Of a DNA stretch of 38,626 nucleotides, positions 1,924-7,562 are shown one piece after another. Within the stretch, counting starts at the first letter, position 1, and every line of letters begins with the position of its first letter. Origin of the DNA: an uncultured Lachnospiraceae bacterium (GTDB lineage: Bacteria; Bacillota; Clostridia; Lachnospirales; Lachnospiraceae). A model generated the notes under the pieces. It saw nothing but the letters and a program-made list of their open reading frames with translations. It ran no database searches and was not told where the DNA came from. Both the position numbers and the translations under genes were made by a program. The stretch lies in assembly GCA_949915905.1 (NCBI GenBank), contig CATLEQ010000006.1, positions 1 through 38,626 on the forward strand, written 5' to 3'.

Positions 1924-4017
1924 TTATTGAAGCAACTGCAATACGCCCTGCGGAACCTGGTTCGCCTGGGCGAGCATCGCCTGAGCAGCCTGAACGAGGA
2001 TGTTGTTCTTCGTGTAAGCCATCATTTCCTCGGCCATGTCAACGTCACGGATACGGCTCTCGGCAGCCGTGATATTCTCCGTTGTCACGCTCAAGTTGTT
2101 AATCGTGTGTTCCAAACGGTTCTGGATGGCACCCAAGTCACCTCTCTGAGAAGATACCGCATTGATAGCGTTTTTAATCTTATCAACAGCTGTCGTTGCA
2201 CCTGCCTGCGTAGAAATGTCAACATCACCAATGCCAAGAGATGCCGCGTTCATGTTCTTTACATTTACGGTCAATTGATTGAAATCCTCAGCTGTATCAC
2301 CAATCTGAAGTGTCAGAGCCTTTCCGGAACCAGGCGTATTGATGCTAAATACTTCCGCGAGTTTCTCCTTAGTGTCGTAAGTCTTCGTAGAATCATCCTT
2401 TTTGTGAATCGTGATTCCCATTTTCTTATCGCCGTTCGACGTATCATTTACACCTACGATAAAGTTTGTCGTATCACCGATTGCCTGAGAAATTTTACCA
2501 AGTGCAGTGTTAAGGTCGGTAGATGTAATATTCTTGGGGTCAAGAGCAGTCAAATCAACTGCACCGTCTGCTGTTTTATACTGGCTGTCTGCACCAACCG
2601 CCAACGTAACGGTCTTTCCATCCACAGTAATTTTCGTTCCATCTACAAGATCAGTTGTTTTCATTTCAAAAACGGTATTCGCAATGGCATTCGCCGCTCC
2701 TACCTGACCTTGCTGCGTAACGGTCGTACCTGCGGTATGGTTACCCTTAAATGCACCGGTCGCATCTTTCATAGAAAGGTCCCAGTCATAATTTCCCTTA
2801 ATATTCGTTGCTGTCGGAGCATCTGCCAACGTGAATTTCAAAGATTCATCACCGTCTTTGGCCACAGTATAATTGACAGTTCCAATCTTCAACTTGCCAT
2901 CTGTCAATTTTGCTTGTAAACCATCATATACGGCATCACGAATCGCTTTCGAGTCTGTGCCCGTAACATTGACATCCGTAACCAAATCAACGTTACCAAG
3001 CTTAAAGCTGATTTGAGCCGGATTCTCAACAGCGGCGGTTCCCGTGTTAGCCTCTGCTGTTACATTGCCAATCGTGATTACTCCTGTACTACCAGTTTTT
3101 GCGGCTGCATCTGACTTTGTAGGAGCCGCCTTCGGTGCACCGTCTGCGGCATTACCAGCATCAACTTTTCCAGCATTTTTTGCTGTATAAACAATGTTAG
3201 AGCCATCAGAAGCTATATCGTAGTCCGCCGAAGTCAATTTGCCAGCGATAAACGCCGCTAATTTCTCGGCATCGTTCGCATCAGCCACATTAATATCACC
3301 AGCCGCACCTACGGCATAATCCGTACCTCCTATAGTAATGTTATCGCCATCTACAAAATTATTGTCCACCGTAACAGCGCTCTTATATACCGCCTTGGTT
3401 GCCGGCGTTCCTTCTCCAGCTTCCGCAGTGATATTGGCAAAATTAACCTTGAACTCGGTCGCCTTTGTTCCCGAACCGCCGCCATCAAGAATCGTCTTAA
3501 GACCTGTATTTCCTACCGGATCTTCACCCGCGCCGAGCACGTCGGAAAGAATACGGTCAATACCCGCCACGGTCTTTCCACCGCCGCCTTGCTCCATGGA
3601 GCCATCGAGCAGATTAATGCCGTTAAAGTTCGTACTCTTTGCAATACGATTAATTTCATCTTTTAGAGATTTAACCTCGGCCTGCAAATTCTCACGGTCT
3701 ACCTCATCTGCATATGTTCCATTGGCGGACTGGTTTGCCAGTTCCACCATGCGGTTGAGCATGGAGTGTACTTCCGTCAGCGCACCTTCTGCCGTCTGCA
3801 CCAGGGAAATACCGTCATTGGCGTTCTTCTGCGCGGTCTTGAGTCCGGTAATCTGCGCGCGCATTTTTTCGGAAATGGCCAATCCTGCCGCGTCGTCACC
3901 CGCACGGTTGATTCTGTAACCGGATGACAGCTTTTCCAAGTTCTTGGAAACCGCGCTGTTATTATTTGTTAAATTTCTGTAAGAATTTAATGCTGCAATA
4001 TTGTGTTGAATTCTCAT
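1924..4017 (-). CDS. Flagellin (697 aa, large central variable region)
   Basis: Canonical N-terminus [56 protein letters not shown] and C-terminus [37 protein letters not shown] upstream of the ATG. Confidence 0.98.
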
Positions 4018-4226: not shown

Positions 4227-4733
4227 CTATGCGTCACTTTCCTTTTCCGCATTCTTTCTTCCCGCCGTTCCTACAATCGTCCTTTTCGCTTCATCGTTGG
4301 CGATTCCACCGTTCATGATTCCGCCATTTAAGCTTTCCCAAATCTGCGCGAGTTCCCGTACCTGCGTCCGCAAAAGTTCCAGTTCCCGCCGTCTCAATTT
4401 ATGCTCCGGATTATCCAAAATCTCTCCCAATTGATATAGGACTCCGGCATAAATTTCCTGGCCGTCATGGTAATCCTCCCGTCTTTTCTCTACCTTCTGG
4501 AGATATTGCGCGTAGCGTTTCTTATCGGACGGCGAACGCTTCGGCTTTCGGTCTAACAATCCTTCGGGACGTTGTTCCCCGTCACGCTCCAGCACCTTTC
4601 CCCGCATAATCGAAATTTCCTTCGGTGCCTTGATGGAAATGCGAAACTGCGGCCCCGATTCCTTAAACACCTGCACCACCACGTCTTCCCCGATGGTAAC
4701 ATACTCCCCTGACTTCATCTGTAACGAAAGCAT
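4227..4733 (-). CDS. csrA: CsrA-family carbon storage regulator with a long C-terminal extension (start moved from 4763 to the internal ATG)
   Basis: MLSLQMKSGEYVTIGEDVVVQVFKESGPQFRISIKAPKEISIMRGKVLER matches the CsrA fold signature (APKE.S..R..V). RBS AGGGAGG lies just upstream of the 4731-4733 ATG. About 110 extra residues follow. Confidence 0.85.
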   Translation of the reverse strand: MLSLQMKSGEYVTIGEDVVVQVFKESGPQFRISIKAPKEISIMRGKVLERDGEQRPEGLLDRKPKRSPSDKKRYAQYLQKVEKRREDYHDGQEIYAGVLYQLGEILDNPEHKLRRRELELLRTQVRELAQIWESLNGGIMNGGIANDEAKRTIVGTAGRKNAEKESDA

Positions 4734-4922: not shown

Positions 4923-4948
4923 TTCACAGAATGCGCAATTCTGCGAAA
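4923..4948 (-). repeat. Left inverted repeat (IR-L) of putative invertible element
   Basis: Reverse complement TTTCGCAGAATTGCGCATTCTGTGAA matches IR-R at 25/26 positions, 22 contiguous. Confidence 0.9.
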
Positions 4949-4979
4949 ATCTTCAAAAATCCCTTGATTACGCGGGCTT

Positions 4980-6131
4980 TCAAGCCACCTGACCACAAAT
5001 CTGACCATAAAATTCTGAAAGCGTTTCCAATTGTTTTCTTTTTGAATCCATGGTAGGGTGAACGTAGCGATTCATGGTGATTTTTACATCAGAATGACCC
5101 AGAATTTCACAGAGCGATTTCACATCCATCCCGCTTTCAATGCAACTTGTGGCAAATGTGTGGCGTATCATATGAAAATTTCTACTCTCGATTTCCGCCA
5201 GGGAAAGTATTTTTTTGAATCGGTATTGCAGCGTTCTTGGCTCCATTGGCTTGTCCCCGCCAAACACATACGGCTGATTTTCGTGCAATGCGGTGAGCAG
5301 CTCCCCGACTTTCGTCGAAATGGGAATCGTCCTTTTTGAACTTTCGCTTTTCGGCTCCATTTCCATCAGGATTGTCTTCGTGGCCTGATTTTTCACCGCG
5401 ATTCTTTGCACCGTGCGCTCCACGGTCAGCGTCATTTCTTTCAAGTTAAAATCCGTCCAACGTAGTGCACACAATTCACCAAGCCGCAAACCCGTATATA
5501 AACATAAAACAAGGGCGGTTCCATATTTGTCCGGCGCATTATAAATAGAAGAAAACAATCGTAGACGTTCGGATTTACTAAACGTCTCCATTGTTTTCTT
5601 CTTTACTTTCATAACCGGCCTTTTCAAAATTGAAATTCGAAGTCCATATGTTTCATTGGCATGACGAATGATTTGATTCATGACGCAACAGACACTCCTC
5701 TGCAGGCTTTCCGAAACCTCATCTGAAAATAAGTGGTCAAAAATCTTGGATTGAAATTCTTCCTTGTCAATCTCCGATAAATGGCAAGAATCAAAAATCG
5801 CAGAAAGGTGCGTTCTATAAACCGTCTCATATTTCACATATGTCGAGTACTTACATTTTTCTCTTTTTTCCTCCAGCCACGCTTTTGCAACTTCAGAAAA
5901 TAAAACGGTTGCATGGGCATTTCCTACATCTTCCGCTTTTGCCCGGCTATCAGGATAAAGATTTTTCTGTGGGGTCAATTTTGCTGCAGTAAGCTTTTCT
6001 TTTGCTTCGGCATATGTACTTCCATAGACAGAGCGATACAAATACCGTCCTTTCTTCTCACTATACGTTTTATAACGACCTTCCCATCGCCCATCCACGC
6101 GTTTTCTTATGTTCTCTCCATGTCGTGCCAT
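4980..6131 (-). CDS. Tyrosine recombinase / site-specific integrase (Tn916 Int-like architecture); candidate DNA invertase
   Basis: MARHGENIRKRVDGRWEGRYKTYSEKKGRYLYRSVYG (N-terminal arm-binding type), then catalytic motifs 'TGLRLGELCALRW', 'HMIRHTFATSC', 'LGHSDVKITMNRYVH'. Start moved to the ATG after GAAAGGAAG. Confidence 0.93.
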   Translation of the reverse strand: MARHGENIRKRVDGRWEGRYKTYSEKKGRYLYRSVYGSTYAEAKEKLTAAKLTPQKNLYPDSRAKAEDVGNAHATVLFSEVAKAWLEEKREKCKYSTYVKYETVYRTHLSAIFDSCHLSEIDKEEFQSKIFDHLFSDEVSESLQRSVCCVMNQIIRHANETYGLRISILKRPVMKVKKKTMETFSKSERLRLFSSIYNAPDKYGTALVLCLYTGLRLGELCALRWTDFNLKEMTLTVERTVQRIAVKNQATKTILMEMEPKSESSKRTIPISTKVGELLTALHENQPYVFGGDKPMEPRTLQYRFKKILSLAEIESRNFHMIRHTFATSCIESGMDVKSLCEILGHSDVKITMNRYVHPTMDSKRKQLETLSEFYGQICGQVA

Positions 6132-6294
6132 GTTATTTCTTCCTTTCGTTCCTATATCAGAGATTCCCTCCTCCGAAGATTTTGACCACAAAAATGACCA
6201 CATTTACCACTTTCCGCGTATTTTTCGCCATATGTTTCCACGAAACACCGGCTATTTGACCATATGATTTTGATAAAAACTTTTGAAAAGATAT

Positions 6295-6323
6295 TAACTT
6301 CTGAAAAAAGATGCCGATATAAT
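6295..6323 (+). promoter_or_regulatory. Sigma28/sigmaD-like promoter, outward facing inside the putative invertible element (overlaps a sigmaA-like TATAAT)
   Basis: TAAC (6295-6298) - N14 - GCCGATAT (6313-6320). Bacillus sigmaD consensus is TAAA-N15-GCCGATAT. An overlapping TTAACT-N18-TATAAT is also present. Confidence 0.65.
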
Positions 6324-6353
6324 ACGTGAAGATAAGAATTACAGTTCATCTTG

Positions 6354-6379
6354 TTTCGCAGAATTGCGCATTCTGCGAA
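6354..6379 (+). repeat. Right inverted repeat (IR-R) of putative invertible element
   Basis: TTTCGCAGAATTGCGCATTCTGCGAA; inverted copy of 4923-4948. Confidence 0.9.
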
Positions 6380-6386
6380 TTTTTTT
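6355..6386 (+). terminator. Intrinsic terminator formed by IR-R plus an external T-tract
   Basis: TTCGCAGAAT-TGCGC-ATTCTGCGAA: perfect 10-bp stem, 5-nt loop, followed directly by T7 (6380-6386). Confidence 0.75.
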
Positions 6387-6599: not shown

Positions 6600-7562
6600 T
6601 TACCCCCTCTCCCGCACGATATATACCGGCCGGTTTTTATTTTCCATGCAATCCTTTGACAGATAAATCCCCACGATATACAAGAAAATCATCTGCACGC
6701 CGGACAAAATCAAGATGGCCGTAAGCAGCACGTCGAACTGTGAAAGTGCACCCGGGACAAATATTTGCTGAACCAGATTGACGAGTAAAAATAACACTCC
6801 CCCGAACAACAGCATCGCCCCCACAATGCCCGCCAGCTTCAGCGGCGCGGTGGAAAAGGCCAGAATCCCTTCCATGGCATAGGACAGAAGGCTTCTCAAA
6901 TTCCACTTGCTGCTGCCATTTTCCCGCTCCACGTTCTCAAACGGAATCCATTTCGTATGAAATCCCACGAAGGAGAAAATGCCTTTCATATAACGGTTGT
7001 ATTCTCGCACAGAAAGTATCGCGTCCACCATGGTGCGGTTCATCATACGGAAATCCCCATATCCATCCCCCATGTCCATGTGTGTCAGACTTTTTCCGAT
7101 TTTATAAAAGAGCCGGGAGCAAAAGCTGCGAATCACGCCGTCCCCCTCCCTGCCGCAACGTTTTCCGCCGCAGCAGTCATACCCCTCCTTGCTGACCGCC
7201 TTGTACATCTGTGGCAAAAGCTTCGGCGGATGCTGCAAGTCCGCATCCATAATCACGCAATAATTCCCTGCCGCCTCCGACAATCCCGCGTACATGGCCG
7301 CCTCCTTGCCAAAATTTCTGGAGAAGGAAAGATATCGGCAGTGCGCGTCCTTTTCGCAAAGCTCCCGCAACATTTCAATCGTTTTGTCACTGCTCCCATC
7401 GTCCACGAAAAGCAGTTCATAATCTATATCCTGCATCTGCCCCAGCACGTTCGCCGTCTCCTCATAAAAATGAAAAATGGATTCCTCCTCATTGTAACAA
7501 GGTACAATCACGCTGATTTTATCTGCCATCCTCTCTTGTCCCTCTTTTTTCAGATTTTCCAT
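6600..7562 (-). CDS. Family 2 glycosyltransferase, GtrB/DPM1-like, two C-terminal TM helices
   Basis: ISVIVPCYNEEESI...YELLFVDDGSSDKT...DADLQHPP...GDGYGDFRMMNR; hydrophobic C-terminus. Confidence 0.93.
   Translation of the reverse strand: MENLKKEGQERMADKISVIVPCYNEEESIFHFYEETANVLGQMQDIDYELLFVDDGSSDKTIEMLRELCEKDAHCRYLSFSRNFGKEAAMYAGLSEAAGNYCVIMDADLQHPPKLLPQMYKAVSKEGYDCCGGKRCGREGDGVIRSFCSRLFYKIGKSLTHMDMGDGYGDFRMMNRTMVDAILSVREYNRYMKGIFSFVGFHTKWIPFENVERENGSSKWNLRSLLSYAMEGILAFSTAPLKLAGIVGAMLLFGGVLFLLVNLVQQIFVPGALSQFDVLLTAILILSGVQMIFLYIVGIYLSKDCMENKNRPVYIVRERG

Follow-up and report, generated by a model that had tools for sequence, protein, structure and literature searches.

Organization of the csrA-flagellin locus

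The analyzed stretch of DNA, 38,626 nucleotides long and hereafter called the window, contains a csrA-like gene (4227–4733, minus strand) encoding a protein of 168 amino acids with a long C-terminal extension, and downstream of it a flagellin gene (1924–4017, minus strand; 697 amino acids). Both genes lie outside the inverted repeat IR-L (4923–4948, minus strand) and read away from the element that IR-L bounds together with a second repeat, IR-R (6354–6379, plus strand). A repeat search showed that the two copies are 26 nt long and 96% complementary. Between them lies a 407-amino-acid open reading frame for a tyrosine recombinase (4980–6203, minus strand; likely start, the ATG at 6131), which reads toward csrA. 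The protein matched Phage_integrase at 1e-27, and the Arg, His-x-x-Arg, His, and Tyr motifs were visible in the alignment. The recombinase is apparently intact. Direct repeats GGTCANNTTTGTGGTCA occur near both ends of the element, as GGTCAGATTTGTGGTCA in the 3' end of the recombinase gene (4990–5006, minus strand) and as GGTCATTTTTGTGGTCA upstream of its likely start (6183–6199, minus strand). Both were present in the related loci L007 and L054 and one in L053, and they are possible candidates for arm-type recombinase binding sites.

A sigma-28-type promoter, TTAACTTC-N11-GCCGATAT (6294–6320, plus strand), lies inside the invertible DNA and points at IR-R, away from csrA, the first gene under the switch; this orientation is referred to as OFF. 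The sigma-28 consensus consists of TAAAGTTT-N11-GCCGATAA-like boxes, and the window promoter fits it. The locus thus combines a promoter flanked by inverted repeats with a recombinase at the same site, as in an inverton. Beyond IR-R, a glycosyltransferase gene (6600–7562, minus strand) is convergent with the OFF-facing promoter. We placed the transcript start near 6326, about 60 nt upstream of the end of the putative terminator described below, in agreement with the distance given in the preliminary description of this DNA. Between the promoter and IR-R, a small stem-loop was predicted (6331–6350, plus strand), which the ON transcript would carry in its 5' leader. It differed among the four tyrosine-type copies compared below, with the pairing partly kept and one pair changed on both sides. 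A search for the promoter leader in viral contigs gave no match.

Hairpin and T-tract at the recombination sites

Each inverted repeat has the dyad symmetry that a pair of recombinase half-sites flanking a short core would produce, and this symmetry gives the hairpin. In IR-R, TTCGCAGAAT (6355–6364) and ATTCTGCGAA (6370–6379) form a perfect 10-bp stem around the loop TGCGC (6365–6369), and seven T residues (T7; 6380–6386, plus strand) follow at the outer edge, outside the invertible DNA. This was exactly as previously described, and together IR-R and T7 form the signature of an intrinsic terminator on the OFF-facing side. The minus-strand read of IR-L, TTTCGCAGAATTGCGCATTCTGTGAA, folds into the same hairpin, except for a single G-U pair, also as described. 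Its outer flank on the csrA side was found to be AAACATGGCGG, also given as AAACATGG, and has no T-tract. The earlier statement that a T-tract is absent here was therefore upheld, but the flank originally noted, AAAAACATGG, takes in the last two A residues of the stem. Within the window, the stretch from IR-L to csrA yielded no terminator candidate.

Only two positions in the 38.6-kb window, 6355 and 20914, combined a perfect stem of 8 bp or longer with an immediately following run of at least five T residues. Shuffling the entire window 200 times with dinucleotide frequencies preserved gave on average 0.04 such patterns per shuffle, and 7 of the 200 shuffles contained one or more. A looser terminator scan over 8 kb showed no excess (4 found against 8.8 expected), although IR-R with T7 was by far the best of the 4; the significance of the structure therefore rests on stem length, the T-tract, and comparative evidence. 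The predicted fold of the OFF leader ended in the 10-bp hairpin (approximately −11 kcal/mol; four G-C pairs, a loop of 5) followed by U7, which agrees with the sequence criterion for an intrinsic terminator. Its score by a d'Aubenton-Carafa-type formula, which serves for relative comparison only, was moderate (−16.4), partly because the A-T end pairs fall outside the best stem. Covariation in the terminator stem gave weak evidence for an RNA function: no stem pair was altered on both sides, and recombinase binding in any case constrains the stem.

Other csrA-flagellin switches in the genus

The recombinase element is present twice more in the genome of the window, on contigs C302 and C32. The C302 copy is of the csrA type; it shares the promoter, differs in the site core (CGCCC), and carries T7 at its OFF side and no T residues at its csrA side. 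Its flagellin gene would fall past the contig end. The C302 recombinase has an in-frame repeat insertion of about 40 amino acids in the catalytic domain (L007, 1143–1260). The C32 copy has no adjacent csrA, no sigma-28 boxes, and no T-tract. Two more csrA-flagellin copies, with T5 and T7, were found on contigs C2 and C11 of G008, a genome of the same genus. All four csrA-associated tyrosine-type copies (the window, C302, C2, and C11) have the sigma-28 promoter, with both boxes invariant, and the hairpin followed by T7, T7, T5, and T7, respectively, on the OFF side only. Their site cores differ, and the DNA beyond the T-tract is dissimilar. A recombinase scan over the genome contigs gave weak matches only.

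Three other csrA loci, on C211, on C16 of G008, and on C12 of G001, have an upstream serine recombinase. In these serine-type switches (L067, 5388–6228; L069, 3878–4792; L070, 4049–4865), inverted repeats enclose approximately 100 bp of DNA with a sigma-28 promoter facing away from csrA; contig C211 stops before any flagellin gene. In a further locus (C313; L068, 2727–4705), a short invertible sigma-28 promoter associated with a XerD-like recombinase precedes a 76-amino-acid CsrA and a flagellin. The serine-type and XerD-like switches use inverted repeats unlike those of the tyrosine type, and their recombinases are encoded outside the inverted segment. Their OFF-side terminators scored 5.1, 24.7, and 12.4 (L067, L069, and L070) and −5.7 (L068), and on the csrA side of these switches no terminator was found, the best score being −44.9 or nothing. 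Altogether, the window and seven further switches in three genomes, in two of which (C302 and C211) the flagellin is off the contig and was inferred from the others, showed a one-sided OFF-facing terminator in 8 of 8 cases and a csrA-side terminator in none of 8, across three recombinase classes. The N11 spacing between the sigma-28 boxes was identical in all eight. Switchable flagellin loci of the three recombinase classes occur within a single genome.

The CsrA-like proteins encoded before the flagellin at a switch can be extended C-terminally by about 110 amino acids. Such long forms were located in the window (4227–4733, minus strand), in L007 (32–505), L053 (2517–3038), and L054 (4757–5245), and in L067, L069, and L070. 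The CsrA domain passed the Pfam threshold but fell far below the NCBIfam cut-off for CsrA (41 against 73 bits). All of the extended proteins found came from three genomes of a single genus, and the family-wide sample contained no genome with the extension beyond that of the window itself; the comparison therefore rests on the genus. Like FljA, the long CsrA may repress other flagellins.

Terminator side across the family

For a wider comparison, we designated the side at the 5' end of the recombinase gene, which is the side of the outward promoter, as R and the other side as L. Recombinase homologues in 195 relatives yielded a first set of 29 elements with flanking repeats, and 397 family genomes yielded 57 further elements, for a total of 86; L038, L039, L045, and L081, with long unrelated or doubtful repeats, were excluded from the counts. 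A terminator was called at a score above −30 with the stem end within 60 nt. In the first set, a terminator was present on R in 20 of 29 elements and on L in none of 29, against 12 of 348 in random background. In the replication set, the corresponding numbers were 20 and 8 of 57, and 16 and 5 at a score above 0. The elements are partly paralogues and orthologues, so that these counts are not all independent. When the flanks were randomized and the repeat kept, 6.8% passed at −30 and 0.9% at 0, in comparison with 28 R-side and 5 L-side terminators observed above 0 among the 86 elements. By this rate, the eight L-side cases at −30 are close to chance. Of the L-side terminators above 0, those of L109, L118, and L135 have the outward gene on the opposite side, and these elements look like true ON states.

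The recombination site itself served as the stem, defined as a stem ending within a few bases of the outer edge of the repeat, in 18 R and 4 L cases of 86 (score above −30; 12 R and 3 L at another threshold), against 1.9% with a randomized flank. In other elements, a stand-alone terminator lies approximately 30–60 nt out, and 40 of the 86 elements have a terminator on neither side at a score above −30. An outward sigma-70 match of at least 10/12 was found on R in 54 and on L in 5 of the 86 elements. Of the 38 elements with a terminator on R only, 33 had an outward open reading frame of at least 100 amino acids with a ribosome-binding-like site on L, and 11 had one on R. At the contig ends near the recombinases of L029, L032, and L082, there were no assembly breaks in the repeats. 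A chance origin of the T-tract was rejected on the basis of the shuffles, the L-side control, and the randomized-flank control.

Inversion and possible orientation bias

Both orientations were directly displayed by one pair only, L117 and L118, on two contigs of G452; the window locus was assembled in OFF only. The two loci share one element, with 95% identity in the DNA enclosed by the repeats, and their flanks align swapped and reversed with the breakpoints in the inverted repeats. This arrangement indicates site-specific inversion within the family by a distant homologue of the window element. All eight csrA-flagellin switches were assembled in the OFF orientation. This excess of OFF (8 of 8 switches; 28 against 5 in the family at a score above 0) suggests a strong OFF bias.

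Proposed mechanism and alternative explanations

We consider it probable, at roughly 80%, that positions 4923–6379 constitute a recombinase-carrying invertible sigma-28 promoter cassette with a one-way terminator at IR-R and T7. Sequence comparison establishes the anatomy of this cassette and shows that it recurs in paralogues, in relatives, and with unrelated classes of recombinase. Recombination between IR-L and IR-R would flip the promoter toward or away from csrA and the flagellin gene. Any transcript crossing a dyad-symmetric site would fold into a hairpin, and because the T-tract lies only outside IR-R, transcription would stop there and pass IR-L. As now oriented (OFF), the promoter would give rise to no more than a roughly 60-nt abortive RNA, insulating the convergent neighbor; in ON, the inverted promoter would read through IR-L into csrA and the flagellin gene, and the recombinase transcript would end at IR-R with T7. 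Inversion of the window copy, termination, insulation, and any effect on the recombinase level are what we infer from this arrangement.

The preliminary description had the promoter terminated in OFF and reading through to csrA and the flagellin gene after inversion. The geometry supports this in part: the promoter faces IR-R and T7, and once inverted it would face csrA and the flagellin gene along a path on which no terminator candidate was found. The terminator is not, however, the cause of the OFF state, since a promoter pointing away already leaves the gene OFF and no terminator is needed to silence it. Most likely, the terminator insulates the neighboring DNA with the convergent glycosyltransferase gene in OFF, and in ON it is best read as the end of the recombinase mRNA. 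The proposed orientation-dependent read-through of the recombinase transcript is allowed by the geometry of the window locus.

The main task of a real terminator could instead be to end the recombinase mRNA in ON, or to provide feedback, with insulation as a by-product, as in fimE. In that orientation, 31 nt would separate the recombinase stop codon from the inverted repeat and about 64 nt would separate it from the end of T7, and a precedent exists in the fim system as cited in PMC2784873. We regard this as unlikely, because the serine-type and XerD-like switches have the OFF-side terminator as well, although their recombinases are encoded outside the inverted segment; neither ending the recombinase mRNA nor feedback can therefore be its general reason. 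If the hairpin were a mere recombinase binding site, with a coincidental T-tract and no terminator function, the dyad symmetry of nearly every inverted repeat in the family, with or without T residues, and the lack of excess in the loose scan would be accounted for. The one-sided T-tracts in 8 of 8 csrA-flagellin switches of three recombinase classes, the family excess far above the flank-randomized null, and the ordinary stand-alone terminators that many elements carry at the same place make this explanation very improbable. That the element is a recombinase transposon with terminal inverted repeats, which settles beside terminators and does not invert, is highly implausible: it would fit the self-contained recombinase, the several copies per genome, the L008 copy without any terminator, and the single pair with both orientations, but not the flanks of L117 and L118 swapped at the repeats, the position of the promoter, which suits the gene on the opposite side, or the sigma-28 boxes at flagellin switches.

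The proposed promoter cassette leads to a testable rule: an invertible promoter has a terminator closing the end directed away from its gene, and this terminator is often made of the recombination site itself. Such a rule would allow ON and OFF to be assigned from sequence alone, would tie the symmetry of a recombination site to an RNA function, and suggests how a strong promoter can be parked harmlessly toward a neighbor. The analysis also pinpointed several switchable flagellin loci in one genome, each linked to a csrA-like gene. A broader proposal, which we put forward tentatively and consider doubtful, is that dual-use sites, in which a recombinase site and an outside T-tract make a one-way terminator, are a design rule of invertible promoters on which systems with tyrosine, serine, and XerD-like recombinases converged independently, that in the flagellin switches such sites also render recombinase read-through orientation-dependent and bias the population to OFF, and that the long CsrA is FljA-like. 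If so, the linked long CsrA would silence other flagellins while its own switch is ON.

Comparison with known switches

The classical flagellin switch is the H-segment of Salmonella, in which the serine recombinase Hin and a promoter lie inside the inverting segment. The window element similarly holds the recombinase and the promoter of a flagellin operon in one segment and couples the flagellin to another, regulatory gene, csrA-like here and fljA in Salmonella. It differs in having a tyrosine recombinase and a sigma-28 promoter, and the serine recombinases of the sister loci, unlike Hin, act from outside the segment. The flg switch of Clostridioides difficile depends on RecV and Rho (PMC7446863); it resembles the window switch in producing flagellar phase variation through tyrosine recombination, with termination favoring OFF. 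However, termination there is Rho-mediated, and the switch is located in the flgB 5' leader and governs the flgB operon rather than one flagellin. In gut invertons, a promoter between inverted repeats is likewise turned to face a surface gene or to point away from it, whereas the portion of that report consulted describes neither an OFF-end terminator rule nor flagellin loci, using "terminator" once and "flagell" never (PMC11892184). Within the open literature, subscription papers being outside the scope, we found neither a tyrosine-recombinase csrA-flagellin switch nor an OFF-end terminator rule.

The detachable terminator of E. coli fimE, as cited in PMC2784873, couples orientation to the recombinase mRNA. 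There too, the terminator makes the length of the recombinase transcript orientation-dependent, although feedback in the window would only be presumed; the fimE terminator is Rho-dependent according to the same citation, whereas the window has one of the intrinsic type, built from the recombination site. C. difficile cwpV comes closest as a precedent for an inverted repeat acting as an intrinsic terminator in OFF; there, a 9-bp stem and a U-tract at the inverted repeat of an invertible DNA were proposed to terminate OFF transcripts 60–70 nt from the start (PMC2784873). Both are invertible DNAs beside a clostridial surface gene. In cwpV, however, the promoter lies outside the segment and the terminator decides between ON and OFF (PMC2784873), whereas in the window the sigma-28 promoter lies inside and turns, the recombinase is also inside, and the T-tract is fixed outside. 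The window switch thus extends a kind already known from cwpV, fimE, and Hin.
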